Assembly: GCA_902386555.1 (NCBI GenBank)
Contig: CABMJJ010000011.1
Span: 1-64,000 of the forward strand
Source: Candidatus Bilamarchaeum dharawalense
GTDB lineage: Archaea; Micrarchaeota; Micrarchaeia; Anstonellales; Bilamarchaeaceae
Length of the DNA stretch: 64,000 bases
Reading direction: 5' to 3'
Below, one piece after another: positions 13,371-32,838 of this stretch. Positions within the stretch are counted from its first letter, which is position 1, and the number at the start of each line of letters is the position of its first letter. A model generated the notes under the pieces. The model worked only from the letters and a program-made list of their open reading frames with translations. It had not been told where the DNA came from and did no database searches. The position numbers were made by a program, and so were the translations under genes.

Positions 13371-13434
13371 ACTACGTCAAGCACCGAAATGCAATAACTA
13401 AGTTTTAAAAGCCAGGGCAATAACTTGACATTCA

Positions 13435-14715
13435 ATGAATCCTACTAGTGCTCGAATTATCGCGCCGAGAGCGATGGTTCAAGAAAAAACTGGCTTAAAT
13501 CGAAATTTGAAGCTAGTCCAACCACTGGAGGAGAGATATCCGAAACCAGATAGATATCATCATACAAAAAGTTCAGCAAAACCTAAACAAACAGTTTGGC
13601 TGGATGGACGTTCACCGATGCGTCCATACTGCTATGCAAAAGGCGGAAGAAAATGGAACCGAGCAGACCAGGAAAGCGAAGGAATGAAATGGGATTACTA
13701 TAGGACCCATAGAAAAACAATTCCACTATTTGAAGGGACTTACCATGATCCAAAATCTTTTGTGAGCACCACAACTGAAGCACATGCAAACGAAGAAAGA
13801 ATAATTGGTTATGAAACAAATGGAAATTTGGTTCAGTTAGTATATTCTAATCATGTCCAACAACATGAAGACGAACACCATGCAACCGGAGCAATAATAC
13901 CAGTTACCCATGACAATTTAGTTCATCATGGAGGATACCCGGTACACTGGACTTACCATAATGGGGACAGTTCAACTGAGCCCAACCACCATACGGACAG
14001 CACACAACATCAAGTGCATGGTACTCATTACGAATATACCATTCATATGGTGGATCATCAATTACATGCACAAAATGAAGCGCATCATGGATCAAACCAC
14101 CACGAAGGAGCAGTTACTGAAGCTGAGTCTCATATGACTCCAGGCCATTCAAGGTTAGTTGGTGGATTCTGGGGAGCGGGACATGGTAATAGTCATGTAG
14201 CTGGAGAACACCACACAGTTCATCATAGTACTGATCATCATGGCGGACAACATCAGGAACATCACTCACATTCTACACATCATCAGGAACACCATGGCGA
14301 TAGCAGCCATAGTGAGAGACATCATGATGCTGGGTTGATTGAAGCAGAAGCTCATATGACACCTGGTCATGCAAGGTTGGTTGGCGGGTTCTGGGGAGCT
14401 GGACACGGTAATAGTCATGTAGCTGGAGAACACCACACAGTTCATCATAGTACGGATCATCATGGCGAACAACATCAGGAACATGTTCATCATAACCAAC
14501 AACATACTCAAGTGGAAGGGCATGGTCTAGAGGTACGTGACCATGCTGTGGTATTAGCACCCATGCACCACCCATTACATGAAGGACCAGCTGGAGTAGA
14601 ACAAGGACAGGTGCAACATGATGCTGAAGTAACAAAAACAGGTGGACATATTGGATCTAATCCTAAAAAAGTTTTCCAGTTAAAAGTGACAAGTGCTTCA
14701 GCAGAGCCCCAATAA
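13435..14715 (+). CDS. Histidine-rich repeat protein
   Basis: Not recognised. About 70 of 426 residues are His, nearly all after residue 130. A basic Pro/Arg/Lys-rich N-terminal segment (residues 1-100) comes first. A 74-residue unit is duplicated: 'MTPGHSRLVGGFWGAGHGNS' and its copy with 'HARL', each followed by an HHTVHHSTDHHG stretch. No signal peptide or membrane span, so it is probably cytoplasmic. High-capacity binding of zinc, nickel or copper is plausible but inferred. A TATA-like TTTTAAAAG about 25 bases before the ATG suggests a leaderless transcript. It precedes the giant-gene cluster on the same strand. Confidence 0.78.
   Translation: MNPTSARIIAPRAMVQEKTGLNRNLKLVQPLEERYPKPDRYHHTKSSAKPKQTVWLDGRSPMRPYCYAKGGRKWNRADQESEGMKWDYYRTHRKTIPLFEGTYHDPKSFVSTTTEAHANEERIIGYETNGNLVQLVYSNHVQQHEDEHHATGAIIPVTHDNLVHHGGYPVHWTYHNGDSSTEPNHHTDSTQHQVHGTHYEYTIHMVDHQLHAQNEAHHGSNHHEGAVTEAESHMTPGHSRLVGGFWGAGHGNSHVAGEHHTVHHSTDHHGGQHQEHHSHSTHHQEHHGDSSHSERHHDAGLIEAEAHMTPGHARLVGGFWGAGHGNSHVAGEHHTVHHSTDHHGEQHQEHVHHNQQHTQVEGHGLEVRDHAVVLAPMHHPLHEGPAGVEQGQVQHDAEVTKTGGHIGSNPKKVFQLKVTSASAEPQ
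14119..14484 (+). repeat. Internal 222-bp duplication in the His-rich gene
   Basis: The unit starting at 14119 recurs at 14341, a period of 222 bases or 74 codons. The first ~145 bases of each copy are highly similar, with a stretch of more than 40 identical bases (GGTAATAGTCATG...). The remainder of the period is degenerate His-rich sequence. The near-identity at synonymous sites indicates a recent duplication. Confidence 0.85.
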
Positions 14716-14826
14716 TTTAAGTAGGAACATGAATCGATAAAAAATTACTGAAAAACAGTCGTCAGTAAGATTAATATATATGGGAATTGGATAATAAAAG
14801 CACAATCTGGAAAAACTGGTGTGCTG

Positions 14827-15153
14827 ATGGCGGGAATAGAAGATAGAATTTTTGAGGAACATGGATTAACTGAAAGATATACTATTTCTGATATTGACGA
14901 GATGGAAAGACAGGCACTGGAAAAAGTAAATAAAGCGCTTTCAGCAATTGAAAATGCAGTTGCAATTTGGGATAGTTCGAAGAAAAGACCAGTTGAACTT
15001 AAACCAAGAATTGAAAAACTTAAGATTTTCCATGATGAATTGAGCAACTGGGAAAAAAGAATACTGCAGACCATGGGCGGTAATGCAGACACAGAAACAC
15101 GGGTAAAACTCCTACGGGAGTTCAGTGATATTTGCCACTCCTACGCCAGGTGA
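14827..15153 (+). CDS. Small helical protein upstream of the giant gene
   Basis: Not recognised; 108 aa, charged and predicted almost entirely helical, with heptad-like Leu/Ile spacing. No Cys or membrane segment. The ATG at 14827 is preferred because GGTG lies eight bases upstream. Its stop is three bases before the start of the giant gene, and its last codons contain that gene's SD (AGGTGA), so the two are surely co-transcribed and likely coupled. It may be a partner or chaperone of the giant protein (inference). Confidence 0.72.
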   Translation: MAGIEDRIFEEHGLTERYTISDIDEMERQALEKVNKALSAIENAVAIWDSSKKRPVELKPRIEKLKIFHDELSNWEKRILQTMGGNADTETRVKLLREFSDICHSYAR

Positions 15154-15156
15154 AAC

Positions 15157-18100
15157 ATGCCACCAAAAGTAGTAGCACCTGAGCTTGATAGAACTGATGA
15201 GGCGCTAAACCGTATTCTGGCCCAGGGAAAACAACAAAATGTAAAACCAGAACTTCTTCCGCTTTTTGCTGCCCTGGAGGATGCCGAGGGTAAAGCAAGA
15301 GCAGTGGTAAAAGTTGCACGGGATGTTGTTGATCCGAAGGTAGGAGTTAGTGATGATACAGCAAGAAGAGATAGGGAAGCAAAAGTCCAAACCGAAGTAC
15401 CTAGATTAATAGGTAATCTTGAGGTTTTAGAAACACAGAACCTCGGGGGTTTGGAGGTACATATCAAAAAAATGCGGGAAGAATTTGCTTTGGCATGGAA
15501 AACCTATGAAGAAGCAAAAACCCAGGAACAAAAAGATAAAGCACTCGAAGCAATGCACCAACTATATCACAAATACCAACCAGTGTTAGAAAAATTACCT
15601 GAGACCATTGCACAGGTTAGGGGTGTGATGACCTCCGGTGCACCACAGGAAATTCAACAAATTTTCATTGGTGCTGCAGGAGCAGCACTGGGTTTCTATC
15701 TTTCTGGAAACCCAGATCGCGCTGACCTGCTATTGAAATCAATTGATACTTTTAATCAAAAACGAGGAATTTTATCTTCTGAAAGTGGTCAAGAGGCATT
15801 GATAGCACTAATCCAACTCACACAGAGATTATGTTCACCAGAAGCAGTTGATATGGATAGGGAATTGCAATCTTTTGAACAAATTGGCAAAAAACTGATC
15901 ACAGGAGACACTCAAAGAAGAACAGAAGCATTGCAGGTTTTTGAATACCAAAGGGTGTTATTGGGGGAACAATGGGAAAGAACAAAGGATCCAAAAGAAA
16001 GAGAATGTATCCAAAAAACCATTGCGGCCCTAGACGAAATGATAGCTAAACTAAAAGACGAACAAAAAAGACAGAGTGTTACCGATGAAGATATGGCCAG
16101 AATGGGCAAACAATGTTTAGTAATAAAAGATATGGAAAGTGCCATAGCCCAAGCACCCACCACTACCGCTAAAGCTGCGATGAGAAGTTTATACATTGCA
16201 CAGTTAGGTGTCCTTGCTGCTGGCGGAAACGATGAGGCAATCGAATTTGCAATTCAAGAGGCCACTGATCACCCTAAGGATGGTGCCTATCTCAAAAAAT
16301 TGGTGCAATATTCAACTGCATTGGCAGCTGCAACAAGCGAGCAACGAATGCAAGCAGAACAGGATTTAATTCTTGCAATGTCACAGAATCTCACGGGTAG
16401 GTTAGATAATGCCATTCCTAGCCTTAGTGAAACTGCAGCAGGAAAAGTTTCGGGGATCCGAGATGGATTAGTTGCCGCCCAACAAAAACCAGAAGAACTT
16501 ACTGTGGATCATTTGAGAACCGCTCGTGCAGCAGTTGAGATGGCAGAGGATTATAAAAAATTCATAGCTTCTGCAACCAGTCTACCCCCGGAAGTTAGAG
16601 AAAGTGCAATTGCCATATACGAAAAAGGATTTGAAGTCCTTGGAACTGGAAATGTGGAACTGGCCCTGGGCTTCATGCAACTGGGCAGACTTTATGCAGC
16701 AACCAAAGATCAAAAACAACGAGAGGAGATTAGTGCACTTGTAAAACAGGTGACAGAACACCCAGAGCGCATAGGAACTATATATGATTATTTGGAAATG
16801 GATGGCACGATAAAATCCCTTAGGGAAGAAGTGCCAAGAGCACCAGCACAAGCAAGACCAGTAATGGAAAAAACAATAGCAGAACTAGAAACTGCAAGAG
16901 CAAGAATGGCAAGTGGAGAGGGGATGGCAACTTCCCAGGATATGGCAAATGTTGAATTACAAATACGCGGACGTATGGCTCAAGATCCTAGATTCAAAGC
17001 TTTGATTGAGCAACAACTCGCCGAGATACGCAAAACGAATCCTCAGGCAACCGAGGATGATGTGATAAAATTAATTGCAAAGGAACAGGCAGAACAAGCA
17101 GCAACAAAAAAAGTAGAAGAAATGGTATCCACCGCCAAAGTCATGGCAAAAACATTCCATGGTCAGAAAACAATAGCACCACCAGTAATAGAAATTTTTG
17201 ATAAAGCAGTGGATGCATTAGTAAAGGGAGATGTAAGAGGCGGTGCAACTCTAAGAGATGCTGCCGAACTTTACCCTAAAGTCAAATCCGCAGAAGATAG
17301 GCAAGTTATATTAGACACCTGTAGAGCCTATGCTAGTGGAGCATATACGATAGAAAAAACACAACAAATTTTAATGATTGAACAGCAACGTGCTACCTAC
17401 GAAACTAAAATTCCACCTGGACGATTAGCAACCAATAGCCAGGCATATTTTGATCTTGCACTTCGTGCAGCACTAAGCGATGATCCAACGGCAAAGGCCA
17501 TCTTTGACCTTGCTGTGCTCTACGCACGAACAGCTGCAACTCAGGAGAAACAGCTTCTACCGGAAATGAAAGAACAGCGTACTGCACATCTTGATTTTGT
17601 TGAACAGAATCTGGGTGACTATGCAGCCACAGCAAAAAAACCACCCAGATTGCTTAAGCTTGAAGAACCCCCAGAAGGGATTGGACTTACTTCAACTGCA
17701 CTGGATGCATTGTCATTTGACACAGCCAAACGCATGCTGGGAGTGGAATATTTAGAGTTCCATATTATGCTTCAGAATATAAGAGGAGCAACTCCAGCAG
17801 AACAACAAGCAAGAGAAGCCCAGTGGGAAAAAGAATCAAGACGATTGCACCAACAGGCAGCCACTGCAAGAACAAGAGGCCAAACCTATCTTGCAGATTA
17901 TTATGAAAGACAAGCAGGCTATGCCAATCCTGCTTTTGTTGCCAGTGCATCAGCTGATGCATTGGAGAGTTTTAGAAAAGGACAGGACGAACAAAAAATT
18001 GCATTGGATCTTGGCCAGGAATTAACAGGGGTTGCAAATGCAGAGATGGGAATGGTAACAAAAAGAACAACTGAACTTATTGCAGAGTTACCACCAGCAG

Positions 18101-21100
18101 TGAAAGCAGAGGCAGAAAGAAAACAACAAGAAGCAAAAGGGGATGAGGCAAAACTTAGAGAATTATATCAGAATCTTTTACTCTACAGAATGCAGCAACA
18201 CCAACAGAGTGGGGATGTGTTGGTTGGATCTGCAACCAGAGTGGGTGAATCGCTTGGACTTTTGGATAAGAGCGTGCGAACAGTAAGAACCATACACTGC
18301 ACAGCTGGAAGATTTGAGCTATTCACAAGTATAAATATAGAGATGGCCTTGGCCAAAGGGCAGAAAACGGATTTTCTTGGAAATGTAATTGAAGGAGAAC
18401 AAACAGCTGCCGACAGACAAGGAATGGAAACCCAGGCTAGAACACTTGGTGGTATTGGAAAAGCTGCGGTTGCCCAACAGGTCAGAATTCAGGAAATAAT
18501 AGGACAGGGAGTTGCCAGAGCAAAAAAAGAGATACGTGATGCCAATGAAGCCGCCCTCACACAAAAAATTGATGAACTAATGGGGATGCTCCGACCACCA
18601 GCAGATGTGGCTCAGTATAAAGCCAGAAGAGAAAGTGCACTGGCTGAAAAAGATGAGAAAGTTCGGATACAAAAACTACAGGACCTCTTTTTAGAACTCG
18701 CAGGAGTTGTTGGCGTGAAGGTTACTGATCAGGAAGCACCCGACAAACCAGTACTTCCAATATACGATGGTGTGGGATCCTATGAAGAGTATAGACGAGT
18801 AGTAAAATTATATTATGCAGAAAAATTTGTTGATGCCAATAGAGCAATGGCACGCGCTTCTTTTGTGATTAGACAGAGTTCAGAGTTGCAGGAGACCTAC
18901 ATTGGTGACGTAAGAGTAACCCAATTAGACAAAGCAACAATGGACGGACAACCTGGCGGATACTTTATTGGGGCAGGTAGAGGGGTTGGACCGCAGGAAC
19001 CACCGGCTCTTGAAGTACTTGCAGTAATGGCCAGACATCTTGACCCCAATGATCCGGATCGAGCACAAATAATAAGAGACATTGACGAGTTACTTCCACT
19101 TGAAGGCGATCCTGCAAATAGTAACGATGTCCGTAATAGAAAGCTAGATATCACGATAAAATTATTGCACAAAAAAGTATACGATCCAACTTCACAGGCA
19201 GGAGCAACGATGATGGATGTTTATGTTGGCGGTCAACATTTCTATTATCATACCGGTGATTATGCTCAAAGACTAAAACAGGCAAGGGCCAAATATGAAG
19301 CAGGAGATACAGCAGGTGCAGAGTCAGATCTTTTCCTAGTTCAAGGCGAGAGAGCACGAGCAGAGAGTGCAACAACATTGGATAGTAAGGCAATGGAAGC
19401 CACCTATACTGCCTGGAGAGATAGGAGAGATGCAGTTATCGGATTATGGAGTAGAATAAGAGAAAAGCTACCAAACCAGGAAGATACACCACGTGCCTAT
19501 GATCAAGCAGTAAAAAGAAACGAAGCACCTACTGCGGCAGTCATACCTGTCCAAGGAAGTATGTTTAGAGATGCAGGAGAGTTTGAAGAAACTGCTGCTG
19601 CATATGAAAAATCAAGAGATGAAACATTGGGGGGACGGGGATTTGCACTGACCCAAAGATTCGTAATGGCCACAATTGCCACTTTGGAGGATCGTAGATC
19701 AGTTAGACTTGAAAGTGGAAAAACCTATGACGAGCTGATTGAAGCCATATCACGTGCAACAACCCCACAAGAACAGGCAAGAGCCACCCAGGAATTTTGG
19801 GATGCTGTAGAGAAAAATCCGCAGGATTTTGCAAGAGTAGCAAAGATGGCCAAATCAGAAGACGGAAGAAGATTTGGATTCATGGAATCCGATGGAATCC
19901 ATTTAGGGGCCAGAGTGATGGAAGCAGGAACCAAGGCAAGGCATGCACAACGCGTAGTCGGATGGCAAAAAGATGAGGAAAATATCAAAGCGGGTATGGA
20001 TGATCTTAGACAGGCTGACGACGATGATATTTATAGAAAACATGAAAAAAGCGAGAGGTATAGGGCAGAGGCCGCTGCACTTGGTTGGGCTCCTCAGCAA
20101 TATACTGCCGACTCATGGAGAGAATTTGCAGCAAGAAGATTTGAGTTGACAATGGGTCTAGCAAGTGAAGAGAATGACTATCGTGCCTATGATATTATTG
20201 CAAACAATGAAACCATCACTTTACCAGTCTATGAATTCAGATCAAGCACCAATAGATATGAAGACGAGTATCCTCTTTACATAACTGTTTATTCTGACGT
20301 AAAAGGATTGCATGGTACACGCACCGCAAGAACCGTTGCAGTTGGATATGAACTCGCAAGTTTAAACCACGATGAATTTGTGGAACGTACATCCTACATA
20401 GACAAGGACTGGTTTGATGATAAACAACCAGAAGCTCGCAAACGTCTTGTAAAGATGGCAGAGGAAAGAACAACACTGGAATTTGCCATGCTTGGTGTGC
20501 GAAGGGAATGGCACCGAGAAGATGGAACAGTATCAGATACTGCTTCGGGAAATGGCTACTGGGTAACTAAAAAATATACACCAACCACAGAACAGCAACA
20601 GGCCACTGAAGCCGCATACCTTCAACATACTTTGTTAACTGAACAGCTTAATGCGAAATTATTTGGTCACAGTGCACCATGGGGAGATGATGCAGTTTTA
20701 GGGTTTATGGATAGAACTGCAGCCCGTGCAAGCGCTGCCTTCCAGTATGCAAATGTTTCTTTAGGTAACAAAAGCGTTGAAGAACGAGAAAGGGCCCAGG
20801 TGGCTTGGAATGATAGCACCCCATTTATAAAAGACGACCATGGAGCCTATCAAGATTATGACAGTAGTTCAAAACAATACCTAACATCCATGGGTAAATG
20901 GCAAAGTGGGTACAGAGTAACTGTTGGCGGAGTCAAGATGACTGTTGCTGTTGTTAGCGGTGTACTTACTGTTGTAGGCGGAACGGTTACCATGCAACCA
21001 GAGCTTGTTGCAATTGGAATAGTGGGAAGCGTAGCTATGGGAGCTGACGCGGTTGCCGCTGGTTTTGAAGAAAGAGAACAGTTGGGTAAGTGGACGGGTT

Positions 21101-23256
21101 GGTCAATATTCCACACTGCATCTGGTGTTGTGATGATGGTTCTCCCAGTTGCAAGTGAATTTGCCACTGCGGGTAGATTAGCAGGTGCAGGTGTTGAAAT
21201 TGCAGGAGAAGTGGCAGGTGGTGCAGAAGCCGTAGTCACAGCAACACGAAGTTTAACATTTGTTCAGAGAGCAGGAAGAGTGTTGTGGGGCGGAGAAGAG
21301 TTATCTGGAATGCAGAGAGCAATTCACATAACTGGCCAGGCTTTGATGGTTAGTGGAGCAGGGGAGGCAATTTACAGATTACCAGAATCAATCAAAATGG
21401 TTAACACTGGTGACCAGACCTGGGTTGAATTTGGATTTGGTATGTTCCAAACAGTAGTACAACCCATATTCACCCATGGAATAGTAGAAGCCAGAATGGC
21501 AACTCAACAAAGAACTGGAGTTCCGGTGTACAGATCACGTGGACGACAGGTAGTGGAAATGTTGGTATTGGGATTGCCACCGGAAAGTGCAACCACTCAT
21601 GCTTTTGCAAGAGAGATCAGAGCCATGCCTTTACCGGAAGCACAGGCCTATCACCAATATGCAGCAGAACGACATATTGATGCCTTACCCATACCAGAAC
21701 AAACTGCAATTCTTAGGGATTATACTGCAGCAAGAAAAGCAAGCGTACAAAGAGGGGAGACACCTCCAACGTTTGGCCAGTTTGCTGCAACCTCACCAAG
21801 AATACAAGCAGCAGGTCACGAAGCAAGTTTCCAATTAGTTGCAACAGGTAGAATGCCTGCAACTTCACTTAGCGATAGTGAATTTACCTATTATCTGGAG
21901 AGACTGAAACATGCAGAACCAGAAGAGGCCTACGCACAAACCTTGAAAGTTGTAAAAACAGAAGGTTGCGAACGGATGGAACAGGTATACAGGGGAGTTC
22001 GGGAGAACTCGTCTTCGGAAGCCCTACTGATTCCATCAGAACGAGCGTATGTGGAAGCAAGAGAAAGAGGTTTGTCACCATCAGATGCAATGGAAGCAGC
22101 AAGGAAAACACCAATTGATCGTGCAGCCGAAATGCGCGAAAATGGAAAAAGAGTGGTAGCAGCAAGAAGAGAACAGTTGGCATTCCGTGCAGAATTAGAA
22201 AGTAGATTTACAAGTACGGAAACCGGATCTGATGGAAGAACAAGATATACAATGGGACGTGGTGAAGAGGCAGCTGTCTATTCAGCTGAACATGTAACAG
22301 CTGCACTGGACATTGTTGGTGCTGCTGAGACTGTGTTAAAGGCCTACCCTGAATTTCATAAATTACCAGCTTCACGCAGAAATGAAATTGTGAGAGATAT
22401 TTTGAAGGATTACCCAGAAACTATTCGAGAGGGAGCAGAAGCACTTGCATCAAATTTACTTTATGTTAGGAATAGAGTAGACAGAAGAATACAATTGGAA
22501 TTTGGACTTGCTGCGGCAAAAGATATTCCAGAAATTGCTCAGCAGCCAGAGTCAATTGCAAGAGCAGCAAAAGCAGAGGAACAACAGATTTTAAGAACGC
22601 AAGTTCCAGCCCAAGATTTGAAACAAATAATAGAACTAAGACAGCAGGAAGCCATAGCGATCAGAGAGGAAGCGCAACAACTTCGCCAGAAAGCAGAGGG
22701 ATTGCAAGGAGAAGAGAAAACAACTGCACTAGCCCGGGCACAATATTTGGAAAAAGTTGCAACGCAGATGGGCGAAGGAACAGAAAGAATACAACAACAT
22801 CTGGAAATTCAGAGACAACGAGCAGAAGCAGTAAGAAGAATAAGAGAAAGAGATGAAGACGAAGGAGTTCGGGCAGTTGCAGAAGCAGAACATGCAACCA
22901 GTATAGGTCCAGCTGCACGTAGAGTGCTAGCCTCATCACCAGAACAATTATTTTCCCAGGACAGAGTTACTGCTGAAATTTTACGAAGAGCAGGATTTGA
23001 AATCGTGGATGGGAGACTGAAACAGGTTAGACAATCAGATTATCTAGTTCGTGATGAACCAATCGAAGGCGCACGAACAGGCATGGGACGAATGGTGGAG
23101 AGTGTAGAAGATTACATATTGGCAGAAGCAGCAGCCGGACGAGAAGTGGATGTCATAGCTTTCCGAGTGGATAAAAAACGCCTTAATCCAACAAATGCCA
23201 TGTTGGGGATGGAGGTAGGAGATGCAGGACTCTCTGCTTACGAAGATGTTGTTTGA
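15157..23256 (+). CDS. Giant helical protein, N-terminal part of a TGA-split gene
   Basis: 2699 codons, no signal peptide. The first ~1900 residues are Ala/Glu/Gln/Lys/Arg-rich, mostly helical and locally TPR-like. Residues ~1918-2033 hold two long hydrophobic stretches (starting 'VKMTVAVVSGVLTVVGGTV' and 'HTASGVVMMVLPVASEFA') that could insert into a membrane. A Gln/Glu-rich coiled-coil region follows (~2480-2580). From residue ~2639 the sequence reads like the start of a GGDEF-type domain: 'RTGMGRMVESVEDYI', then 'VDVIAFRVDKKRLNPTNAML', then 'GMEVGDAGLSAYEDVV'. It then stops at TGA 23254. The same frame continues for 3193 more codons. SD AGGTGA directly precedes the ATG. Function unknown. 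The reading frame itself is certain. Confidence 0.9.
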   Translation: MPPKVVAPELDRTDEALNRILAQGKQQNVKPELLPLFAALEDAEGKARAVVKVARDVVDPKVGVSDDTARRDREAKVQTEVPRLIGNLEVLETQNLGGLEVHIKKMREEFALAWKTYEEAKTQEQKDKALEAMHQLYHKYQPVLEKLPETIAQVRGVMTSGAPQEIQQIFIGAAGAALGFYLSGNPDRADLLLKSIDTFNQKRGILSSESGQEALIALIQLTQRLCSPEAVDMDRELQSFEQIGKKLITGDTQRRTEALQVFEYQRVLLGEQWERTKDPKERECIQKTIAALDEMIAKLKDEQKRQSVTDEDMARMGKQCLVIKDMESAIAQAPTTTAKAAMRSLYIAQLGVLAAGGNDEAIEFAIQEATDHPKDGAYLKKLVQYSTALAAATSEQRMQAEQDLILAMSQNLTGRLDNAIPSLSETAAGKVSGIRDGLVAAQQKPEELTVDHLRTARAAVEMAEDYKKFIASATSLPPEVRESAIAIYEKGFEVLGTGNVELALGFMQLGRLYAATKDQKQREEISALVKQVTEHPERIGTIYDYLEMDGTIKSLREEVPRAPAQARPVMEKTIAELETARARMASGEGMATSQDMANVELQIRGRMAQDPRFKALIEQQLAEIRKTNPQATEDDVIKLIAKEQAEQAATKKVEEMVSTAKVMAKTFHGQKTIAPPVIEIFDKAVDALVKGDVRGGATLRDAAELYPKVKSAEDRQVILDTCRAYASGAYTIEKTQQILMIEQQRATYETKIPPGRLATNSQAYFDLALRAALSDDPTAKAIFDLAVLYARTAATQEKQLLPEMKEQRTAHLDFVEQNLGDYAATAKKPPRLLKLEEPPEGIGLTSTALDALSFDTAKRMLGVEYLEFHIMLQNIRGATPAEQQAREAQWEKESRRLHQQAATARTRGQTYLADYYERQAGYANPAFVASASADALESFRKGQDEQKIALDLGQELTGVANAEMGMVTKRTTELIAELPPAVKAEAERKQQEAKGDEAKLRELYQNLLLYRMQQHQQSGDVLVGSATRVGESLGLLDKSVRTVRTIHCTAGRFELFTSINIEMALAKGQKTDFLGNVIEGEQTAADRQGMETQARTLGGIGKAAVAQQVRIQEIIGQGVARAKKEIRDANEAALTQKIDELMGMLRPPADVAQYKARRESALAEKDEKVRIQKLQDLFLELAGVVGVKVTDQEAPDKPVLPIYDGVGSYEEYRRVVKLYYAEKFVDANRAMARASFVIRQSSELQETYIGDVRVTQLDKATMDGQPGGYFIGAGRGVGPQEPPALEVLAVMARHLDPNDPDRAQIIRDIDELLPLEGDPANSNDVRNRKLDITIKLLHKKVYDPTSQAGATMMDVYVGGQHFYYHTGDYAQRLKQARAKYEAGDTAGAESDLFLVQGERARAESATTLDSKAMEATYTAWRDRRDAVIGLWSRIREKLPNQEDTPRAYDQAVKRNEAPTAAVIPVQGSMFRDAGEFEETAAAYEKSRDETLGGRGFALTQRFVMATIATLEDRRSVRLESGKTYDELIEAISRATTPQEQARATQEFWDAVEKNPQDFARVAKMAKSEDGRRFGFMESDGIHLGARVMEAGTKARHAQRVVGWQKDEENIKAGMDDLRQADDDDIYRKHEKSERYRAEAAALGWAPQQYTADSWREFAARRFELTMGLASEENDYRAYDIIANNETITLPVYEFRSSTNRYEDEYPLYITVYSDVKGLHGTRTARTVAVGYELASLNHDEFVERTSYIDKDWFDDKQPEARKRLVKMAEERTTLEFAMLGVRREWHREDGTVSDTASGNGYWVTKKYTPTTEQQQATEAAYLQHTLLTEQLNAKLFGHSAPWGDDAVLGFMDRTAARASAAFQYANVSLGNKSVEERERAQVAWNDSTPFIKDDHGAYQDYDSSSKQYLTSMGKWQSGYRVTVGGVKMTVAVVSGVLTVVGGTVTMQPELVAIGIVGSVAMGADAVAAGFEEREQLGKWTGWSIFHTASGVVMMVLPVASEFATAGRLAGAGVEIAGEVAGGAEAVVTATRSLTFVQRAGRVLWGGEELSGMQRAIHITGQALMVSGAGEAIYRLPESIKMVNTGDQTWVEFGFGMFQTVVQPIFTHGIVEARMATQQRTGVPVYRSRGRQVVEMLVLGLPPESATTHAFAREIRAMPLPEAQAYHQYAAERHIDALPIPEQTAILRDYTAARKASVQRGETPPTFGQFAATSPRIQAAGHEASFQLVATGRMPATSLSDSEFTYYLERLKHAEPEEAYAQTLKVVKTEGCERMEQVYRGVRENSSSEALLIPSERAYVEARERGLSPSDAMEAARKTPIDRAAEMRENGKRVVAARREQLAFRAELESRFTSTETGSDGRTRYTMGRGEEAAVYSAEHVTAALDIVGAAETVLKAYPEFHKLPASRRNEIVRDILKDYPETIREGAEALASNLLYVRNRVDRRIQLEFGLAAAKDIPEIAQQPESIARAAKAEEQQILRTQVPAQDLKQIIELRQQEAIAIREEAQQLRQKAEGLQGEEKTTALARAQYLEKVATQMGEGTERIQQHLEIQRQRAEAVRRIRERDEDEGVRAVAEAEHATSIGPAARRVLASSPEQLFSQDRVTAEILRRAGFEIVDGRLKQVRQSDYLVRDEPIEGARTGMGRMVESVEDYILAEAAAGREVDVIAFRVDKKRLNPTNAMLGMEVGDAGLSAYEDVV
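23254..23256 (+). other. In-frame TGA dividing the giant gene
   Basis: The codon order is GTT TGA TTG. Upstream and downstream frames are the same and no other stop interrupts 15157-32838. Single-base changes from AGA, CGA, GGA or TGG would create it. The next codon, TTG, could serve as a start but has no SD before it. The GGDEF-like pattern runs across the codon with no missing part. Confidence 0.85.
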
Positions 23257-26200
23257 TTGGCAACCAGAAAAATAGTTGGCGACGGAGTTGAAAGTAGCGG
23301 GTTTATTATTAAACCACCAGCTGGCCAAGGGGATGAATTAGTTGGAATAATAATTGTACCAAAAGGTCAAGGAAAAAAGGTCAGGGCTCAGTTAGAAGCA
23401 AGTGTGGATCAGGCTACCACCGAAGTAATTGCAGGATTGGATCCAAACGGAGGATTGGTAAGATCACAACGATGGGTGACTAATCCCCGTCAGTTAGTGG
23501 AAGCATCAATCGATATTAGTAACCCCATCACAGTTACAAGAAGAGAAGATGGTACAGTGGTTGCCTTGCATGAGGATGGAAGCGACGCCATGGTTCTTCA
23601 TCCTGAGAGTGGAAGAACAGGATTCTTAGCAACCCAGGTAACAAGAGCAGAATATGACGGTTCTTTGAGTTTTGCCCCAGTTCTAATGGATCGTCTTGGG
23701 GTAAAACCATATGTTGGAGCAGCAAATGATCCAAGAATCGAAAATGCTGGTGCAACTGAAACCATTCCTCATGGTGAAGCATTCGGCATACGTGTTCAGA
23801 TTGATGAGAGAAGTTTATACGAAAAAAGAGTTAGGCCGGGTGAAGAACAGCTACCACCCTATTCAGATATGGAAGGCTATCTTAGAGTAACAAAAAAAGG
23901 ATATGCTGAAGTTGAAGACGATAATTTTGGCATACGCGGATTGAATACCTTCCTTGGTCATGATGGTGCAAATGGAGTGGTACGAGCAGTAGACGATGCA
24001 GTTTTCAGATATGCCAGTGAGCATGGGGTCAAAATACGTAGATTAGGTACGATGAAATATGTTATTGAAGGAGGATCAGCAGCAGATGTTGCTGCTGTTG
24101 AACAATTTGTCACAGAACAACTCCATAGTGCTGGAATGAAATTGAGTGCATCAACAGAACATGCACCTGTAGATGGTGTAGGAGTGGCAGATGCATTAAC
24201 AGCAATTTCAAATGGACACATGCGATTGGAGTGGGGTACTGGAAATTACGATGCTGCCCAGGCAATGATTGCTTCCATGGCACTTGGAACCGATGAAGCT
24301 TTGGCAAGACTTGGCCTTGATCAATTACCTGGAGTTGTGAAACTAGTTAGAGAAAATCCATCCATACGAAATGTGGAAGATTTGCTTGTTGCATTTAGAA
24401 TGACACCTGAACCAGAAGGATCCCAACTGTTTACTGACTTTCATGAATTTGTATTGAAACAAGGTGGGGAATTTTTAGGAAGACTGGAAACACTACGAAG
24501 TCCTGTGCAAACCACAGCATTGGCAAGAGCAGAGGACGTTGCACCATTGATCACACCAAGAGTGGGAGAACCAGTAACAGAAATTAGAGTGAGAACTCTA
24601 GATAGAGGGGACAGTTATTTGCCAGACTTAACAAGTCCACGAAGAGATGGGACCTATAATCAGTCAGGCAGGGGAGTAACTTTTGCATTTGTTGAAATTC
24701 CAGAAGGCACCAGACCAGCACAGGTTTTAGAACAGGTTAGAGCAACAACACCAAAAGCAGAATTTATTATTTATCAAGAAGCAGACGGACGAGTTCGGAT
24801 TATGGCCGGTCCAGAGACCAATGAACAGAATGCTGGAGCAGCTGCAGCAGGTCATTTTGAAAGAGGAGGATTTGAAGAGTACTGCAGATTAAAAACTGGC
24901 CAGAGGGATTTGGTAGGACGAGATGACGAAGGAGTTTTTGTAAGAGGTAAATCTCCTGAAGAAGCCTTGGATCTATTAAAACAATTTATTGCTCTTCCAC
25001 CAGATTTCAGAGGATTGTTGGGTGATAAGGGTGCCGGGATATTTGACCTGCCACCGGGTGAGCAGTATGTCCAATTGTTAGATTATAATAGAAGAAATCC
25101 GCGACAGTCCATAGATCTTAACACATTCACTCGAGACACCAAAACCTATTTGAAAATTGATGTTAAGGTTGCAACAGTGGATGGATTTGCAACAAGAGTA
25201 TTTGGGGACACTTTCCATCCAGAGGAAACATCACTTCCAGAAAGAGATTTCAGATATGACATCCAAGTAACAAGAGCAGAACTTGAACAGATGATGGGTA
25301 GAAGAAGGATAGTTGAAACAGAAAAGATCGGTGCTGGCGGATATACTCTTGCGTTTAAAGTCACTCTAGATGACGGTTCAGTGAAAGTTGTTAAGGTTTC
25401 ATATAATATTGGATCAGAAGCCCAGACCGACCATGCATCGCATCGAGTATTCGGACATGGACGGGATATTGTTGCATTCTCAGATGGGCACTTTGAATTA
25501 ACAGTGGAAGGACTTGCATCTGGGGGATCACTGGCAGATTACAGCGGACGAGGGATAGGTAAACTACTTGTAGAAAAATATGTTGAAGGAAAATATGATA
25601 CAACAACTCCAGAAGGTAGAGCTGCTGCTCAGCAGGCAATGGAAAGAGGAAGACAAGCAGTGGGTGATGCTGTTGCAAGAGCATTTGCAGAAGATATAGT
25701 TTTGGGTTGCCTTGATGATGCCCATGTTGGTAATTATTTCATTGATATTGCACCAGATGGGACAGTAAAAGTGGAAAGAATTGACACATCCGATGGTTTG
25801 AGTTATGATACCACTAGAGCAAGAAAACAAATGGATCGTGAAAATAACGCTTTAACATTTGCAAAGGAACTGGGATTCACTCAGGAAGAATTTTTCAGAA
25901 TGGTTGGAGACCATCTCACTGCATTTGAGAGAGATGGCGCATTGGAAAGAGTAGGAACTGGAACCGCAACCCCACTGGAACCATCTTCAGGTAGATTGCT
26001 GGATGGAAGATACAGCCCAGAAATAGTTAGAAGATATGTTGATCGTGCAAGGCAATTCATGCAAGAAGGAATGGCACCATTTTCCATGGAAGCAGCAGAA
26101 TTTGATCGCCATGTGGCAACAAAAACCCACCTTAGAGAACGACAGGCAGCAGGTGAAAGGCAGGTAGTACGAGGAGGCAGAAAAACCGGAGTGGGCGAAG

Positions 26201-29200
26201 ATAGAATCACATTGGAAAACGGAAAATATATTTTAGAAAGATTGGACGGCGTATTGACAGAGAATCCTGAGGGTTCGGTCTATGTTTTCGTTGATCGAGA
26301 AAATAAAATAGTTGGAATTAGCGGTAACCGGGAAGCTGCACCACCAAAGGGAGCAGCAAAATATGAATTCAGTTTCAATCAGGAAACTGGTGAACTGACA
26401 TTAGTTTCAAAAAGAACATGGACCGACATGATTAGAGGAAGGAGAATCCCAACCGAAGTGATGGCGCTTGATGGATTGGTTGCACCGAGAGTGGAATACA
26501 CTCCAGTGACAGAAGCGCAGGTGGTACCGAAAAGAAGAGTAGTAACAAGACAAATGACTGAACTAGCAGCCAGAGCTTCTGATCCAGTGGCCTATAGGGA
26601 TTTCCTTCAGGGAAATAGAACCGGGGTTCCTGTTGATGTAACTAGATTAAGAGCATCAACTGAATTTTTCGGAGAGGGGAGACAGGTAGGACTGAGAGAA
26701 ATACCGGATGTAGTTAAGCCAAAAAGAGACAGATTTGTTACCCTGGCAAATCAGGATGTTGTAGGAAATGCCCCGGAACTTTACCAAATGCTTTATGATT
26801 CAATAAAAGAAACCTGGACACGCGAGGGTAGACGATTCACTGATTTTGATGTTAAACGTACTGCTGCCCAGGCAGTTGCAGAAGCACATGGAATGCTTCA
26901 TGGAACATTTGACCAAGGATTGATGGATTTCCTTACACGAACATTGCGTACAGGAGACGAAAGGACATATGATGCAACAAGCGATGTGATGGGGATGTTA
27001 CTACAGGGCAGTATGCTCCATCCAAAAGCACATTTTGTAAGAGAGTCATTTACAACCATTGGTGTTTATCCCTATGAATACAATGGTACTGCAGCCATGG
27101 TACCATTGGACGCAATGTTTGAATTAAACTTTATGAATGGTTTTGTGGTTGCTGATTCTGGAGCTTTGGCAAGATCCGGGGTTAGAGCAGTTGCATTTGG
27201 AAATGATGTTTTACTCACTGACCGGGATTCTGTTCAGCATGAGATGCAACACGTTTTCGATCACACCATTGAAGGGCAGGGATTGCATCCCCACTCTACG
27301 GAAGTGGATATGGAATATCGTGCTTTCCTAGCATCAGTTGCATTTTCCGATGATCCTGTAGCAACACTGACATCTTTAAGACAAAGATTTGGAAGGCCAA
27401 GTGGCCAGGAGGTGGAAGTTGGTGCCCACCAAAGAGCAGTAGAAACAATGAGCGGTGAAATGGAAGCAAGACTTCCAAGGGATGCCAGTCCAGAGCTAGT
27501 TAGAAAAGCTGCAAGAGATCTTTTGAATAGCGCCTACCGCAGTGCCTACGGACTTAGCTATGATGAAATATTACAACCATTCCACGGACTTCCTCCGGTT
27601 GAAACTGGTACTGTTGTTCAAAGAGTTTGGGGAGCAATTAGAAGCGGAGGAGAGTTTGCAGCTGATCGACCACTACTATTCCCTGGATCCGGACACGGAC
27701 TGGATGGAGATCCAGCTCGCATGTCAAGTTCAGCTGGACAGCTTCACGGAATTTGCGAAGGATTGTCATCTCACAATCCAGCAGTTGCAGAACGAGCAAG
27801 ACAACAATATCATGCACTTGATCCTGCCATGAGGGAAGCAGTATTATATATGATAGCTGAAGGCTCGGAATATAGATTGGCTGATCCTTCTGAACGTTTA
27901 CGAGTAGCTGAAAAACTTGCAAAAAGTGTTGAGGCAGAAAGAGCAGGCCAGGTGGAACAACTTCCAAGAGATAGATTTGAACAGTTGGCAAGAATTGCAG
28001 ACAGAATTGTTTATGAGGGAGATAGAACTACGCTTGGACAGATTTCCAGATTTCTCACTGGTTATGAAGCAAGAGTGGTAGTAAAATTAACCAATTTAAT
28101 GAACGAAGCAAAAGCAGCCAGCAGGGGAAGAGCAGCACCAGAAAGTTATGTTGAAACCTATTTTGGAGATCGGGTATTGGATCAGGCCAGCAGACCAAGA
28201 CCAATTCAAACAAGAGAAGAAGTTTTAGGACGATTCACCAGTCCGAGCATAAATCCAGATGGTTCAGTAAGAATGCAATCATTTGAAGCAAGATTAGCAG
28301 AAACTGGATTTAGATTGGTTACTGAAAGCAGCGGAGCACTCAAAGTCAGCTATGATCCAAGAAATGGACGAGCACAGGTGAGTTTGGCTTATGATACGCC
28401 CGAGGGACAGAGAACAATTGCAGTTCCATTACCTGAACGAAGAGCCAATGAAGCAGAGCATATTTACCAATACCGCGTCCGGCAACAAATCAGCGAATCC
28501 ATATTGGCAGTTAGGGAACAGGAAACCGCTGCTCTGGTTCCAGATAGCACCAGAGGAGCTCGACGTTTATATTTGATATCACAGGACCATGGTGAAGTTT
28601 TAGGAACAGCAAATGAAAGAGCAGTTGCAAAACAACTTGCACTTGATGCAGACTACCAAAGTGCAGTTAGAAGAGGAGACCGGCAAGCAGCAATGGAAAT
28701 TGCAGAAGAATTTACACCGCTTGTGGAAATTGCAGGATCAACAACCGCAGTAAGCAGAGGAAGATATGTGGACATTGTACAAAATGCCCGCCAGGTAATT
28801 GCCATGGGCGATTTGCATGGTGATGTGGCTGGTGTGGTTGATCAGTTCCTGCGATCTGGAATTTTGATTGATACCATGGAAGGATTGCCAAGAGATTTGC
28901 CACCTGGTGATCCAGGCTATGTTCCATTTGCAAGAAGATATAGAATTAATCCTGACCTTCCACCTGGAACACAAATTGTATTTACAGGAGACTACATGGA
29001 CCGAGGTCCAACAAGCGTGGATGTGATGGAACTGGTCATGTTTATGCAGTATGAGGGAAGGCAAACTGGAGTAACTGTGCATACGCTAAGAGGAAATCAT
29101 GAAGAATTGTTCAGAAGATTTGTTGAAACATACAAAGGATTGAGCCAACAACGAGTGGAGGCCATATTGGCAGGAGATATGTCCCAAGACGTACAGGTAG

Positions 29201-32200
29201 GAACAGCAGGAGTACCATTGAGTATGTTGTGTGCCTGGGGGAGAGTTGGTATGCGAGATACCTTCGCCTCCATAGTAGAGAGATATGGAAGTTGGGAAAA
29301 TTTCATAGCTGCAAATTATGATAATGGAAAGGTAGTAAGAGGAAGTGTGATGGACTTTGTTGGTTCTACCAAAGCAGCAGTTATTATAGATAATAATTAT
29401 TTCACACATGGAGGGCCTGTGATTAGAAGTGATGGACAGCTGGTTACCAGCCCAGCAATGCTTGATCAGCATTTCACAAGATTATTCAGCACACTTGACA
29501 ATCACTGGGCAACAACATTTGCAGATCAGAAAGTTGAAGCTGCAGGAGATTATTCTGCAACCTACATTGATTACCATGGAGATGTTGGCAGGGGATGGAC
29601 TCCTGCAATGAGAACAGCAGACGGACAGGCCTGGATGCAGGCACTTGGTGTAGACCAGGTATATGTTGGCCACTGCCCAGGAGATGGGGTCAGACAAGTT
29701 GGGGATTATGCAACTGCAATAGATGTTGGCATGACAAAAAAATATGGAAGAGGAAATGGCTATGTTGTAATAGATCCTCTAGATAGGAAAGCCCCGATAA
29801 AAGTCTACGAAACTCGATCTGCTGAAGATGCACCAGAATTATTAGGAATACCTGAAGAGGGCTACACACCAAGAGACTTTACCAACGGAAGAGATAGAGC
29901 AACGGTTTTGAGAAATCCGATTAGTGAAGCTGCAGATCAGGGTTATAGGAACATGACTGAAGCTGCCACAGCCCAACCAGATCTTAGAGTTGTACAATCA
30001 GAAACTGTCCCAAAACTGCCATTTAGACAGGGAAATGAACCAAAAGCAGCAACACGCGATGAATACATTGCAAAACTTACCCAGGATCTTCAATATTATA
30101 GCCAGGCAGGGGTGGAACCACCTGCAGAATATCTTGATGCTGTTAGAATGATTCAACTTAATGCACAAAGAGGCATGGACATAGGAGAAACAGCAACTCT
30201 TATGGCAACAAGATTGGTTGATAGGAGTGGCGAAGTTCCACTTGGCACTCCAAGAGAAATGGAACTCACAACTGGGAATATTCAGGGAAGACCAGAATTG
30301 GAAGCCCTATTACCAAAAGGTGCTGAAGGCAAAAAGGCAAGAATGGTTGCAAGAGTTTTAGACTCGTTAACTGAATCAGTTTTACAAAATCGTGTTGACA
30401 TTGATAGCATTCCAGCAGAGTATAGACCCTATGTGGAAAGCATGGCTGGTACAACAAAAGAACAGCGAGCAGAAATAGCAAGACGATCGGCTGTGGAAAT
30501 TGTTGGTGAAAGAGATCGTGCAGCTGTGCCAGGTAGACCGGTACAACCAGTTAGTGAAGCAGAAACAAAGGTTAGAGCATTGGTTCAGGAATATGAATTA
30601 ACAACAAGACATGCACAACGTGGAGATACACTAATGCTATCTCCAGAATTTATGCGGATGACTGATTTGCTTAGCAGACATCCTAGTATGAAACCAGAGG
30701 ACGCTGCAAGAATAGTGGTTGAAGAAAAACGAACTGGGAAACAGATAGAACAACCATTGGAAGAAGCAGCCTATAGAAAACAGGTTGAAGTGTTACCAGA
30801 AAAAAGACAGCAACAATATATCTATGATCATTTTGGAACTGTTCCACCAGATCAGATTACACTTGACAATGCAATGATTATTTTCGGTGATAGGAATGGA
30901 AGCAGAAGAGGAGTGTTCTCAAGCTTCGGTGAAGTATCTAGCAGTGAATCAATGGGAGGCAACGCCGGCCCAATGCGTGTAGCTGTGAATGGGTATTATG
31001 ATCCGCAAACTGGAAGGATAATAGCATTTGGAAACATTCAGGATATTCCTAAATCAATTTTGGCAAAAGGACGGGAGTTTACCTTATTAGTAGATATGTC
31101 AACTGGAAAAATTGATAGGGTGATTACACCTAATGCAAGCGTTCCTGAGTTGGCTGGGCTTGAAGGAATGAAACTTGGTGAAGGAATAGGTCCCCTGCCA
31201 GGAAGAAGTCCTCCAGTGGCAACAGCTCCTCCAGTACCAGTAGATTTGCAATTTAGATATGGAAATTATACAGTTGAAGAGATAGAACCGTACCTACCAC
31301 CTAAATTAGATGGCGATGGTGGAAGAACAGGATTGATAAGAAGACTTTCAAGAGAATTTTATAGACATGCTGAAAATCCAGGAGCAGTCCCAAGAGAATA
31401 CGAAGGGTATGTCACATTATTCGCTCGAATAAAAAATCCAGCAGAGAGAGCACGAGCAATCATTGATGTTGCAACCATGATAGTTGATACCAGCGGACAG
31501 GTAAAACCTGGACCAGTTGCAGATGTGGAAAGAACAACTGGTAATATAGTTAGAGGGCCCGAACTGGAAGGAAGATTGCATAAGGGAGAAACAAAACAGG
31601 TGAGAATGGTTGCAAGAACATTGGATGCATTTGCAGATGCAGTATCACAGAATCACATGAGTTTGGAAATGGTTCCGGAAAAATATAGAGTAGCAGTAGG
31701 AGAGATGATTGGAAGAACTAGAGAACAACAGGCAGGTATGGCAGTTCAGTTTGCAACCGAATTTGAAAGACAACGAATAGCCGTACAGGGGGCATTGGAT
31801 CAAAGAAGCGGAGGACCGAAACCCTATGCAGAAATAGCAACTGAATGGGATACTGCCTCGCCAGTTAGAGCACGTGTGGTTGTGGATCGTTCTGGAACTT
31901 TGGACCGACAGATTGCCTTGAGAATGAGAGTACCAGCTGACCCGTCATTTGACATACTAGGAGCATCAGAAGGAAGAGAATGGTTGTATGAAAGAGCAGT
32001 CCAAGGATCTGAGGCTGAAGCAGAAGGATATGCAAGATTTGTGAAAGCAGTGGAACAAAGAGGAGAGGCATTCAGACCACTACTCTATCTTCTTGGAATA
32101 GGACATGAAGTTTCAGTGCGAGGTGGGGAATCAGTTGTTCTGGGTAGCTGGAATTCATTCCTCTACCAATATGCTGCTTTTGGAGAAAGCGCAGTAAGAG

Positions 32201-32838
32201 GATGGCGCGGAAGCCATGATGTGGATCTTTTCACAAGCATAGAAGCCACTCCTGAGATGATACGTGGCATTCATGCATCTGGAGTCACCACCAGTTTGGA
32301 AAGATCAGTTGCCCATACTGCCAAATTCAGTGGCAGTGTAAGTTATGAACCACTTCATGGCCCCTGTCAATTGGATGTTTATGTTCCAACAACAGTAGCA
32401 GGAAAACGTGGAATGTACATTGAAGGATTGTTTATACCCATGGAAAGAATACATAAGATAAGACTGGAACAATTTGGAATTGATGTTTTGGATCCAGTGA
32501 GCTATGTAACAATGAAGACCTATGCTGGCAGACCGCAGGATGTTGTTGATATTATCGAAACCCTGGGTGCAGTACACGTTCTCAATGGAAGAGGAGTGGA
32601 GATAGGGAACGTACGGGAGATAATAGGTAGATTGGAATATAGAGAAAAGGTTAGCCTTCTAGCCCAATTGGAGGGACTACGAGAAGCAGGTTTTGAAACC
32701 AGCATACCAGTGGATATTGCAAAACAGGTTTTTGCAGACGCATATAGAGAATTGTCAAGACAGGTGGATCCAAAAGACCGACCAAAAACAGGTGGCCGAC
32801 CAGAGCAGGTAGTTGTACGTACGGGCTATCCTAACTAA
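23257..32838 (+). CDS. Giant multidomain protein, C-terminal part: GGDEF-like, kinase-like, zincin, PPP phosphatase, NTase-like
   Basis: 3193 codons in frame with the preceding gene. Numbering starts at the TTG. Residues 1-60 complete the degenerate GGDEF-like domain (GQGDEL at 23-28). A second one lies at ~220-290 ('DDNFGIRGLNTFLGHDGAN', loop reduced to LGTMKYV). A kinase-like domain spans ~689-850: GAGGY loop, K713, 'DDAHVGNYFID' (820-830) and 'IDTSDG' (842-847). A zincin motif HEMQH is at 1328-1332, with E1349 or E1353 as third ligand. A full PPP phosphatase set follows: GDLHGD (1851), GDYMDRG (1911), RGNHEE (1945), HGG (2051), GH (2138). A ~150-residue module occurs twice (~2269-2428, ~2689-2845). 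The C-terminus (~2900-3190) looks like a nucleotidyltransferase (D2988, D2990, D3040). Whether this part is translated alone is unknown. Confidence 0.85.
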   Translation: MATRKIVGDGVESSGFIIKPPAGQGDELVGIIIVPKGQGKKVRAQLEASVDQATTEVIAGLDPNGGLVRSQRWVTNPRQLVEASIDISNPITVTRREDGTVVALHEDGSDAMVLHPESGRTGFLATQVTRAEYDGSLSFAPVLMDRLGVKPYVGAANDPRIENAGATETIPHGEAFGIRVQIDERSLYEKRVRPGEEQLPPYSDMEGYLRVTKKGYAEVEDDNFGIRGLNTFLGHDGANGVVRAVDDAVFRYASEHGVKIRRLGTMKYVIEGGSAADVAAVEQFVTEQLHSAGMKLSASTEHAPVDGVGVADALTAISNGHMRLEWGTGNYDAAQAMIASMALGTDEALARLGLDQLPGVVKLVRENPSIRNVEDLLVAFRMTPEPEGSQLFTDFHEFVLKQGGEFLGRLETLRSPVQTTALARAEDVAPLITPRVGEPVTEIRVRTLDRGDSYLPDLTSPRRDGTYNQSGRGVTFAFVEIPEGTRPAQVLEQVRATTPKAEFIIYQEADGRVRIMAGPETNEQNAGAAAAGHFERGGFEEYCRLKTGQRDLVGRDDEGVFVRGKSPEEALDLLKQFIALPPDFRGLLGDKGAGIFDLPPGEQYVQLLDYNRRNPRQSIDLNTFTRDTKTYLKIDVKVATVDGFATRVFGDTFHPEETSLPERDFRYDIQVTRAELEQMMGRRRIVETEKIGAGGYTLAFKVTLDDGSVKVVKVSYNIGSEAQTDHASHRVFGHGRDIVAFSDGHFELTVEGLASGGSLADYSGRGIGKLLVEKYVEGKYDTTTPEGRAAAQQAMERGRQAVGDAVARAFAEDIVLGCLDDAHVGNYFIDIAPDGTVKVERIDTSDGLSYDTTRARKQMDRENNALTFAKELGFTQEEFFRMVGDHLTAFERDGALERVGTGTATPLEPSSGRLLDGRYSPEIVRRYVDRARQFMQEGMAPFSMEAAEFDRHVATKTHLRERQAAGERQVVRGGRKTGVGEDRITLENGKYILERLDGVLTENPEGSVYVFVDRENKIVGISGNREAAPPKGAAKYEFSFNQETGELTLVSKRTWTDMIRGRRIPTEVMALDGLVAPRVEYTPVTEAQVVPKRRVVTRQMTELAARASDPVAYRDFLQGNRTGVPVDVTRLRASTEFFGEGRQVGLREIPDVVKPKRDRFVTLANQDVVGNAPELYQMLYDSIKETWTREGRRFTDFDVKRTAAQAVAEAHGMLHGTFDQGLMDFLTRTLRTGDERTYDATSDVMGMLLQGSMLHPKAHFVRESFTTIGVYPYEYNGTAAMVPLDAMFELNFMNGFVVADSGALARSGVRAVAFGNDVLLTDRDSVQHEMQHVFDHTIEGQGLHPHSTEVDMEYRAFLASVAFSDDPVATLTSLRQRFGRPSGQEVEVGAHQRAVETMSGEMEARLPRDASPELVRKAARDLLNSAYRSAYGLSYDEILQPFHGLPPVETGTVVQRVWGAIRSGGEFAADRPLLFPGSGHGLDGDPARMSSSAGQLHGICEGLSSHNPAVAERARQQYHALDPAMREAVLYMIAEGSEYRLADPSERLRVAEKLAKSVEAERAGQVEQLPRDRFEQLARIADRIVYEGDRTTLGQISRFLTGYEARVVVKLTNLMNEAKAASRGRAAPESYVETYFGDRVLDQASRPRPIQTREEVLGRFTSPSINPDGSVRMQSFEARLAETGFRLVTESSGALKVSYDPRNGRAQVSLAYDTPEGQRTIAVPLPERRANEAEHIYQYRVRQQISESILAVREQETAALVPDSTRGARRLYLISQDHGEVLGTANERAVAKQLALDADYQSAVRRGDRQAAMEIAEEFTPLVEIAGSTTAVSRGRYVDIVQNARQVIAMGDLHGDVAGVVDQFLRSGILIDTMEGLPRDLPPGDPGYVPFARRYRINPDLPPGTQIVFTGDYMDRGPTSVDVMELVMFMQYEGRQTGVTVHTLRGNHEELFRRFVETYKGLSQQRVEAILAGDMSQDVQVGTAGVPLSMLCAWGRVGMRDTFASIVERYGSWENFIAANYDNGKVVRGSVMDFVGSTKAAVIIDNNYFTHGGPVIRSDGQLVTSPAMLDQHFTRLFSTLDNHWATTFADQKVEAAGDYSATYIDYHGDVGRGWTPAMRTADGQAWMQALGVDQVYVGHCPGDGVRQVGDYATAIDVGMTKKYGRGNGYVVIDPLDRKAPIKVYETRSAEDAPELLGIPEEGYTPRDFTNGRDRATVLRNPISEAADQGYRNMTEAATAQPDLRVVQSETVPKLPFRQGNEPKAATRDEYIAKLTQDLQYYSQAGVEPPAEYLDAVRMIQLNAQRGMDIGETATLMATRLVDRSGEVPLGTPREMELTTGNIQGRPELEALLPKGAEGKKARMVARVLDSLTESVLQNRVDIDSIPAEYRPYVESMAGTTKEQRAEIARRSAVEIVGERDRAAVPGRPVQPVSEAETKVRALVQEYELTTRHAQRGDTLMLSPEFMRMTDLLSRHPSMKPEDAARIVVEEKRTGKQIEQPLEEAAYRKQVEVLPEKRQQQYIYDHFGTVPPDQITLDNAMIIFGDRNGSRRGVFSSFGEVSSSESMGGNAGPMRVAVNGYYDPQTGRIIAFGNIQDIPKSILAKGREFTLLVDMSTGKIDRVITPNASVPELAGLEGMKLGEGIGPLPGRSPPVATAPPVPVDLQFRYGNYTVEEIEPYLPPKLDGDGGRTGLIRRLSREFYRHAENPGAVPREYEGYVTLFARIKNPAERARAIIDVATMIVDTSGQVKPGPVADVERTTGNIVRGPELEGRLHKGETKQVRMVARTLDAFADAVSQNHMSLEMVPEKYRVAVGEMIGRTREQQAGMAVQFATEFERQRIAVQGALDQRSGGPKPYAEIATEWDTASPVRARVVVDRSGTLDRQIALRMRVPADPSFDILGASEGREWLYERAVQGSEAEAEGYARFVKAVEQRGEAFRPLLYLLGIGHEVSVRGGESVVLGSWNSFLYQYAAFGESAVRGWRGSHDVDLFTSIEATPEMIRGIHASGVTTSLERSVAHTAKFSGSVSYEPLHGPCQLDVYVPTTVAGKRGMYIEGLFIPMERIHKIRLEQFGIDVLDPVSYVTMKTYAGRPQDVVDIIETLGAVHVLNGRGVEIGNVREIIGRLEYREKVSLLAQLEGLREAGFETSIPVDIAKQVFADAYRELSRQVDPKDRPKTGGRPEQVVVRTGYPN

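Follow-up and report, generated by a model that had tools for sequence, protein, structure and literature searches.

The described systems closest to the locus analysed here are the PF00990 diguanylate cyclases, the giant open reading frames of ultrasmall host-dependent prokaryotes and the archaeal selenoprotein genes in which UGA is recoded. Diguanylate cyclases such as PleD, WspR and DosC resemble the first GGDEF-like domain of the locus (domain 1) in predicted fold and strand order and in an acidic DE pair at the hairpin, but the hairpin of domain 1 reads GQGDEL rather than GG[DE]EF and the domain has no profile match. A second domain (domain 2) differs further: its signature is RRLGTMKY, with no acidic residues at the hairpin. 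The giant proteins of the Omnitrophota, as described in PMC10066038, also come from very long open reading frames in small genomes and have few recognisable domains; unlike them, the protein studied here carries GGDEF-like, PPP phosphatase and enzyme-like motifs and few hydrophobic stretches. In archaeal selenoprotein genes an in-frame TGA is likewise followed by an open frame, but the relatives of the present gene have neither Cys nor Sec at this position, tRNA-Sec was not found in its genome and the stop is not conserved. According to PMC8037382, archaeal stop-codon readthrough has been shown unequivocally only for selenocysteine and pyrrolysine, and the part of the review PMC8211752 that deals with archaeal recoding treats these two.

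The window is the whole stretch of 64,000 nucleotides that was analysed, positions 1-64000 of contig C11 (96,318 bases) in a source genome of 1.27 Mb, 11 contigs and 88% completeness. The features of the locus are as follows.

15157-23256, forward strand: giant gene part 1, with an ATG start and 2,699 codons, ending at TGA 23254-23256; no Pfam match.
23080-23646, forward strand: predicted GGDEF-like domain 1, which the TGA interrupts; it corresponds to model residues about 11-199, with the TGA as residue 69 in helix 54-76.
23254-23256, forward strand: lone in-frame TGA; relatives have Arg (6/8) or Gln (2/8) in the aligned column.
23257-32838, forward strand: giant gene part 2, 3,193 open codons plus TAA; a TTG abuts the TGA.
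23770-24180, limits approximate, forward strand: putative GGDEF-like domain 2, recognised by its resemblance in sequence (FGIRGLNTFLGH ... RRLGTMKY, a degenerate signature).
28795-29127, forward strand: calcineurin-like (PPP-type) phosphoesterase domain, PF00149 at E 3.1e-8, with GDLHG, GDYMDRG and GNHE.

An earlier note on this DNA, made from the letters and a list of open reading frames, had described two open reading frames at 15157-23253 and 23257-32838 as one gene broken by a single stop. Both were found at these positions, in one common frame and with nothing but TGA 23254-23256 in between, and the motifs that the note had quoted are present (FRVDKKRLNPTNAML, GDAGL, and GQGDEL at part-2 residues 23-28). 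Part 2 encodes the rest of GGDEF-like domain 1, followed by GGDEF-like domain 2 and the PPP-type phosphatase. Neither part contains a further stop. A scan of the whole 96,318-base contig for single stops flanked on each side by 250 or more open codons found TGA 23254 and no other (2,700 and 3,193 open codons). Ten other lone-stop rows are present in the contigs of relatives.

The ATG at 15157 is preceded, at a distance of three bases, by AGGTGA. This motif overlaps the stop of a small open reading frame (about 14815-15153, forward strand) that shares the giant gene's frame and whose TGA at 15151-15153 ends three bases before the giant gene's ATG; the arrangement looks like translational coupling between the two. 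An N-terminal extension of the giant gene was considered and rejected: region 13400-15300, compared with the giant homologues, matched no relative's protein below E 0.3, and there was thus no sign that the upstream sequence is part of the gene. Inside the compared region, an extremely His-rich open reading frame lies at 13435-14715 (forward strand; 426 residues) and holds two near-identical repeats (RLVGGFWGAGHGNSHVAGEHHTVHHSTDHHG), with no Pfam match. A tRNA-Val (CAC) with a 54-base intron is located at 9340-9466 on the reverse strand, and more intron-bearing tRNAs occur elsewhere in the genome, which is archaeal on this evidence.

Undivided homologues, proposed in the earlier note as a check, were sought with a 123-residue query over the TGA site. 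There were eleven matches, spread over 8 of 40 genomes, one of them the own. Besides the own match, eight were strong (E 2.8e-15 or better) and two were weak, in proteins 564 and 591 residues long. All ten non-self matches are free of internal stops. The strong matches are eight genes open across the TGA site in six other genomes of the same genus (G002, G005, G006, G008, and two each in G009 and G015). Their open frames measure 5,818, 8,609, 5,693, 7,301 and 2,312 codons, and 4,310, 3,377 and 1,062 codons where the contig end cuts the gene. No relative was found to have a pair of genes separated by an intergenic gap at the TGA site, an arrangement that the note had set against a single gene. 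In a phylum-wide search, 19 of 295 genomes gave a match, and the only one of 41 match rows with a stop was the window's own. Among these 295 genomes, frames longer than 2,000 codons with the GGDEF-like module were confined to the window's own genus. A comparison of part 1 with plasmid records gave no match, and viral contigs yielded three pattern stretches and no relative.

Parts 1 and 2 were both matched, in order and inside one frame, in all eight homologues. In the 5,693-residue frame of G009C3 the match to part 1 stops at residue 3146 and that to part 2 starts at 3148; colinearity extends over three blocks of part 1 (residues 180-2699), the first 413 residues of part 2 and, further on, the phosphatase region at 1680-2227. 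In part 2, the match to G009C10 ended after residue 381 and that to the contig-cut G015C23 gene after residue 524; for G006C32 and the long G015C23 gene, part 1 was matched only near its end. This variation in matched extent indicates related giant genes that are not all strict equivalents. Identity to the relatives in the junction region is 33-40%, and the collections searched hold no close relative. On G015:C23 two giant genes stand head to tail, of 7,301 and at least 4,310 codons, with the tandem module in both. Each of the eight homologues has exactly one residue at the TGA column: Arg in six (codons AGG, CGG and CGC) and Gln in two (CAG). Of the two residues guessed for this position, Arg proved to be the commonest, and Trp was seen in no relative.

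The structure of domain 1 was predicted with the TGA read as a residue (pLDDT 74, pTM 0.72; block pLDDT 83 around helix 54-76). A 447-residue model spanning domains 1 and 2 agreed on domain 1 with lower confidence (pLDDT 62, pTM 0.44), and domain 1 was therefore folded alone. The prediction suggests a single GGDEF-like fold across the junction; the lack of such a fold would, for the earlier note, have spoken against one gene. When the model was compared by VIA-align, ranks 1-41 among the best 50 entries were GGDEF or diguanylate cyclase entries, identified by title apart from a few, such as ImcA, that we take to be GGDEF proteins. The best entry had Z 9.3 and rmsd 3.7 for 134 aligned residues, spanning model residues about 12-204, a Z near 9 being modest. 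The best Foldseek row was a GGDEF protein (E 9.6e-3, prob 0.99), with none below 1e-3.

Profile searches gave a fainter signal. For the window itself, PF00990 gave no match with an E of 1 or less; over the nine-row alignment of the window and its eight relatives, three rows matched at E <= 1 (best 2e-4), and in one relative the match, at 16.5 bits vs a cut-off of 23.8, crosses the TGA site. Compared with the PDB by sequence, the junction profile gave nothing convincing. The GG[DE]EF signature is incomplete, being GQGDEL in the window and [GS]DE in the relatives. Because of the missing PF00990 match and the incomplete signature, the class is limited to a GGDEF-like fold: domain 1 is predicted to have this fold, short of a demonstrated diguanylate cyclase. 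In domain 1 the alignment also shows Asp, Asn and Asp at eight- and nine-residue spacing, together with [GS]DE. This spacing is that of the metal and guanine contacts of PleD.

By alignment, domains 1 and 2 are two related modules in tandem. The module is also encoded on its own in the genus, in proteins about 540-606 residues long, and similar proteins of about 526-606 residues occur in other genomes of the genus and family. In the own genome, L063:640-2262 (G000:C4) encodes such a protein, of 540 residues, with its GGDEF-like domains arranged in tandem in the same way. These stand-alone copies make it easier to regard the module as an independent unit, and it is this unit that the TGA interrupts. 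Domain 2 appears to be a degenerate partner, domain 1 having kept the residues for nucleotide and metal.

The eight open, undivided frames indicate that the ancestral state was one gene. The statement that the coding sequence 'was, or is, one protein of about 5,890 residues' is borne out by these homologues, by the single aligned residue at the TGA and by the domain predicted over the joint. Sequence comparison and model thus support the reading of one ancestral giant gene of ~5,890 codons. That two genes were separate from the outset and merely abut in frame is hardly conceivable: a TTG does stand immediately 3' of the TGA, but the homologues are undivided with both parts ordered in a single frame, and one domain lies over the joint. 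The undivided homologues rule this arrangement out.

The one-gene reading raises the question of how the TGA is read. TGA ends 22 of 75 selected open reading frames on contig C11 and is a normal stop, and genome-wide reassignment was rejected on this stop use. Selenocysteine was likewise rejected, both on the Arg or Gln at the aligned residue, with no Cys, and on the missing tRNA-Sec: the own genome, 88% complete, gave 0 matches at E <= 0.001 in a search that detected 14 of 14 controls, five of them over the cut-off. The scan for a suppressor tRNA covered 18 tRNA-like stretches and the window's tRNA and was not exhaustive; in this 88%-complete genome ARAGORN called a tRNA in 15 of the 19 stretches, none with a UCA anticodon. 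One tRNA was called 'Stop (tta)', which we took as a misplaced intron of a tRNA-Lys.

Programmed UGA readthrough would have the ribosome insert an amino acid part of the time, so that short and full-length products are both made, and a part 2 that is entirely open and conserved past the TGA would suit it. We consider it very unlikely, however, as the TGA is conserved in no relative, the aligned residue is Cys or Trp in none of the eight, and neither tRNA-Sec nor a UCA anticodon was found. The archaeal precedents, moreover, are unequivocal only for selenocysteine and pyrrolysine according to PMC8037382, the same two that are treated in PMC8211752. We would give equally little credence to a regulated site, by readthrough or reinitiation, with a default product of 2,699 residues and a small share of about 5,890. 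Were such a site real, the tandem GGDEF-like and phosphatase domains would be made only on passing the stop, and the recoding would be of a kind absent from the sections of the archaeal review at hand (PMC8211752).

A functional split, in which translation of part 2 would begin by termination-reinitiation, at TTG 23257 or at some start further on, and the pieces would associate, is better placed and still unlikely. The TTG adjoins the TGA, conserved residues are kept in both halves of domain 1, and coupled termination-reinitiation is known in archaea (PMC6728339). However, the cut would fall inside a helix of a compact domain in the model, none of the eight homologues is divided at the TGA site, and the next start in part 2 is a GTG at residue 50, with the first ATG at residue 112. 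As the earlier note had remarked, no Shine-Dalgarno-like motif precedes TTG 23257; this is weak evidence, because a 4-base motif of this kind was found in only 19 of 48 long ATG open reading frames on the contig.

The conservation of part 2 bears on the age of the stop. The window kept 9 of 11 columns invariant in the other eight rows before the TGA, and 28 of 35 after it; by the same measure the other rows ranged from 9/9 to 9/12 before the site and from 28/29 to 28/35 after it. Clear decay past the TGA was absent, and the window and G002's gene lie at the low end for conserved columns; a slight relaxation of constraint in the window may have occurred. Without selection on part 2, neutral change of 0.66-0.90% per site would be enough for three new stops to be expected. 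Since part 2 is free of further stops, the TGA would be young, unless part 2 is translated separately: the dating rests on the absence of those stops, and the bound fails with independent translation of part 2.

As a whole, the locus is probably best explained by one ancestral gene with a young, single-base TGA, either real or a consensus error. A single-base change at an Arg-type position would have placed the TGA in helix 2 of domain 1. The change would be young, either a true nonsense mutation in the population that was sequenced or an incorrect base in the metagenome consensus. Consensus error alone, with no stop in the organism's gene and the TGA a wrong base in the metagenome assembly, is a distinct possibility, if not the favoured one. 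It fits a lone substitution in an otherwise open 17.7-kb frame and homologues that are uninterrupted in 8 of 8 cases, but no other sign of error was found in the contig, where a second lone stop flanked on either side by 250 open codons is absent. We rank a real nonsense change slightly ahead. If the TGA is real, the main product would be a 2,699-residue protein without half of domain 1, domain 2 and the phosphatase. We infer that the change is young and that the stop is not recoded. The earlier note had left four alternatives for the TGA: recoding and a split found little or no support, and a fresh nonsense change and a consensus error both remain. In all likelihood there is nothing unusual about the stop: a recent nonsense mutation or an error in the sequence would account for it better than a new mechanism.

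Elsewhere in the giant protein, the phosphatase was the clearest feature. PF00149 scored 34.7 bits in part 2 against a cut-off of 21.5, and Metallophos was the sole Pfam over its cut-off across the two parts. The motifs GDLHG, GDYMDRG and GNHE lie at part-2 residues 1851, 1911 and 1946; GDxHG, GDxxDRG and GNHE are the PPP motifs. Metallophos was also over the cut-off, as the sole such Pfam, in the giant genes of three relatives, in a scan that covered in full these three of the eight homologues. In the fourth long gene, G009C10, the scan took in the first 4,112 residues, up to the last 1,706, and gave no such match. NCBIfam gave only low-scoring matches, far under the cut-off, and part 2 compared with the PDB by sequence gave weak PP2A matches. 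Other motifs in part 2, all without a profile match, suggest a kinase-like loop and HxxN at residues 692 and 823 (about 25330-25734), an HExxH site at residue 1328 (about 27238) and a nucleotidyltransferase-like region near residue 2976 (about 32182).

Hydropathy analysis revealed few hydrophobic stretches overall, with one such region in part 1 at residues about 1922-1971, and nothing resembling a signal peptide at the N-terminus. Judged from these sequence features, the intact protein may be a large intracellular multidomain signalling scaffold, in which domain 1 would bind GTP or a related nucleotide.

Among the genomes searched, this giant multidomain family appears to be confined to one genus of DPANN-type archaea with reduced genomes. 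The titles found in the literature on Iainarchaeota, Diapherotrites and DPANN included none on such a giant-gene family, and a search for literature linking GGDEF with Iainarchaeota returned nothing. The family is undescribed and is of more interest than the stop. Should domain 1 turn out to bind or produce a guanine nucleotide signal, the giant proteins of these DPANN-type archaea would contain a nucleotide-signalling module, an idea that can be tested on the intact relatives.
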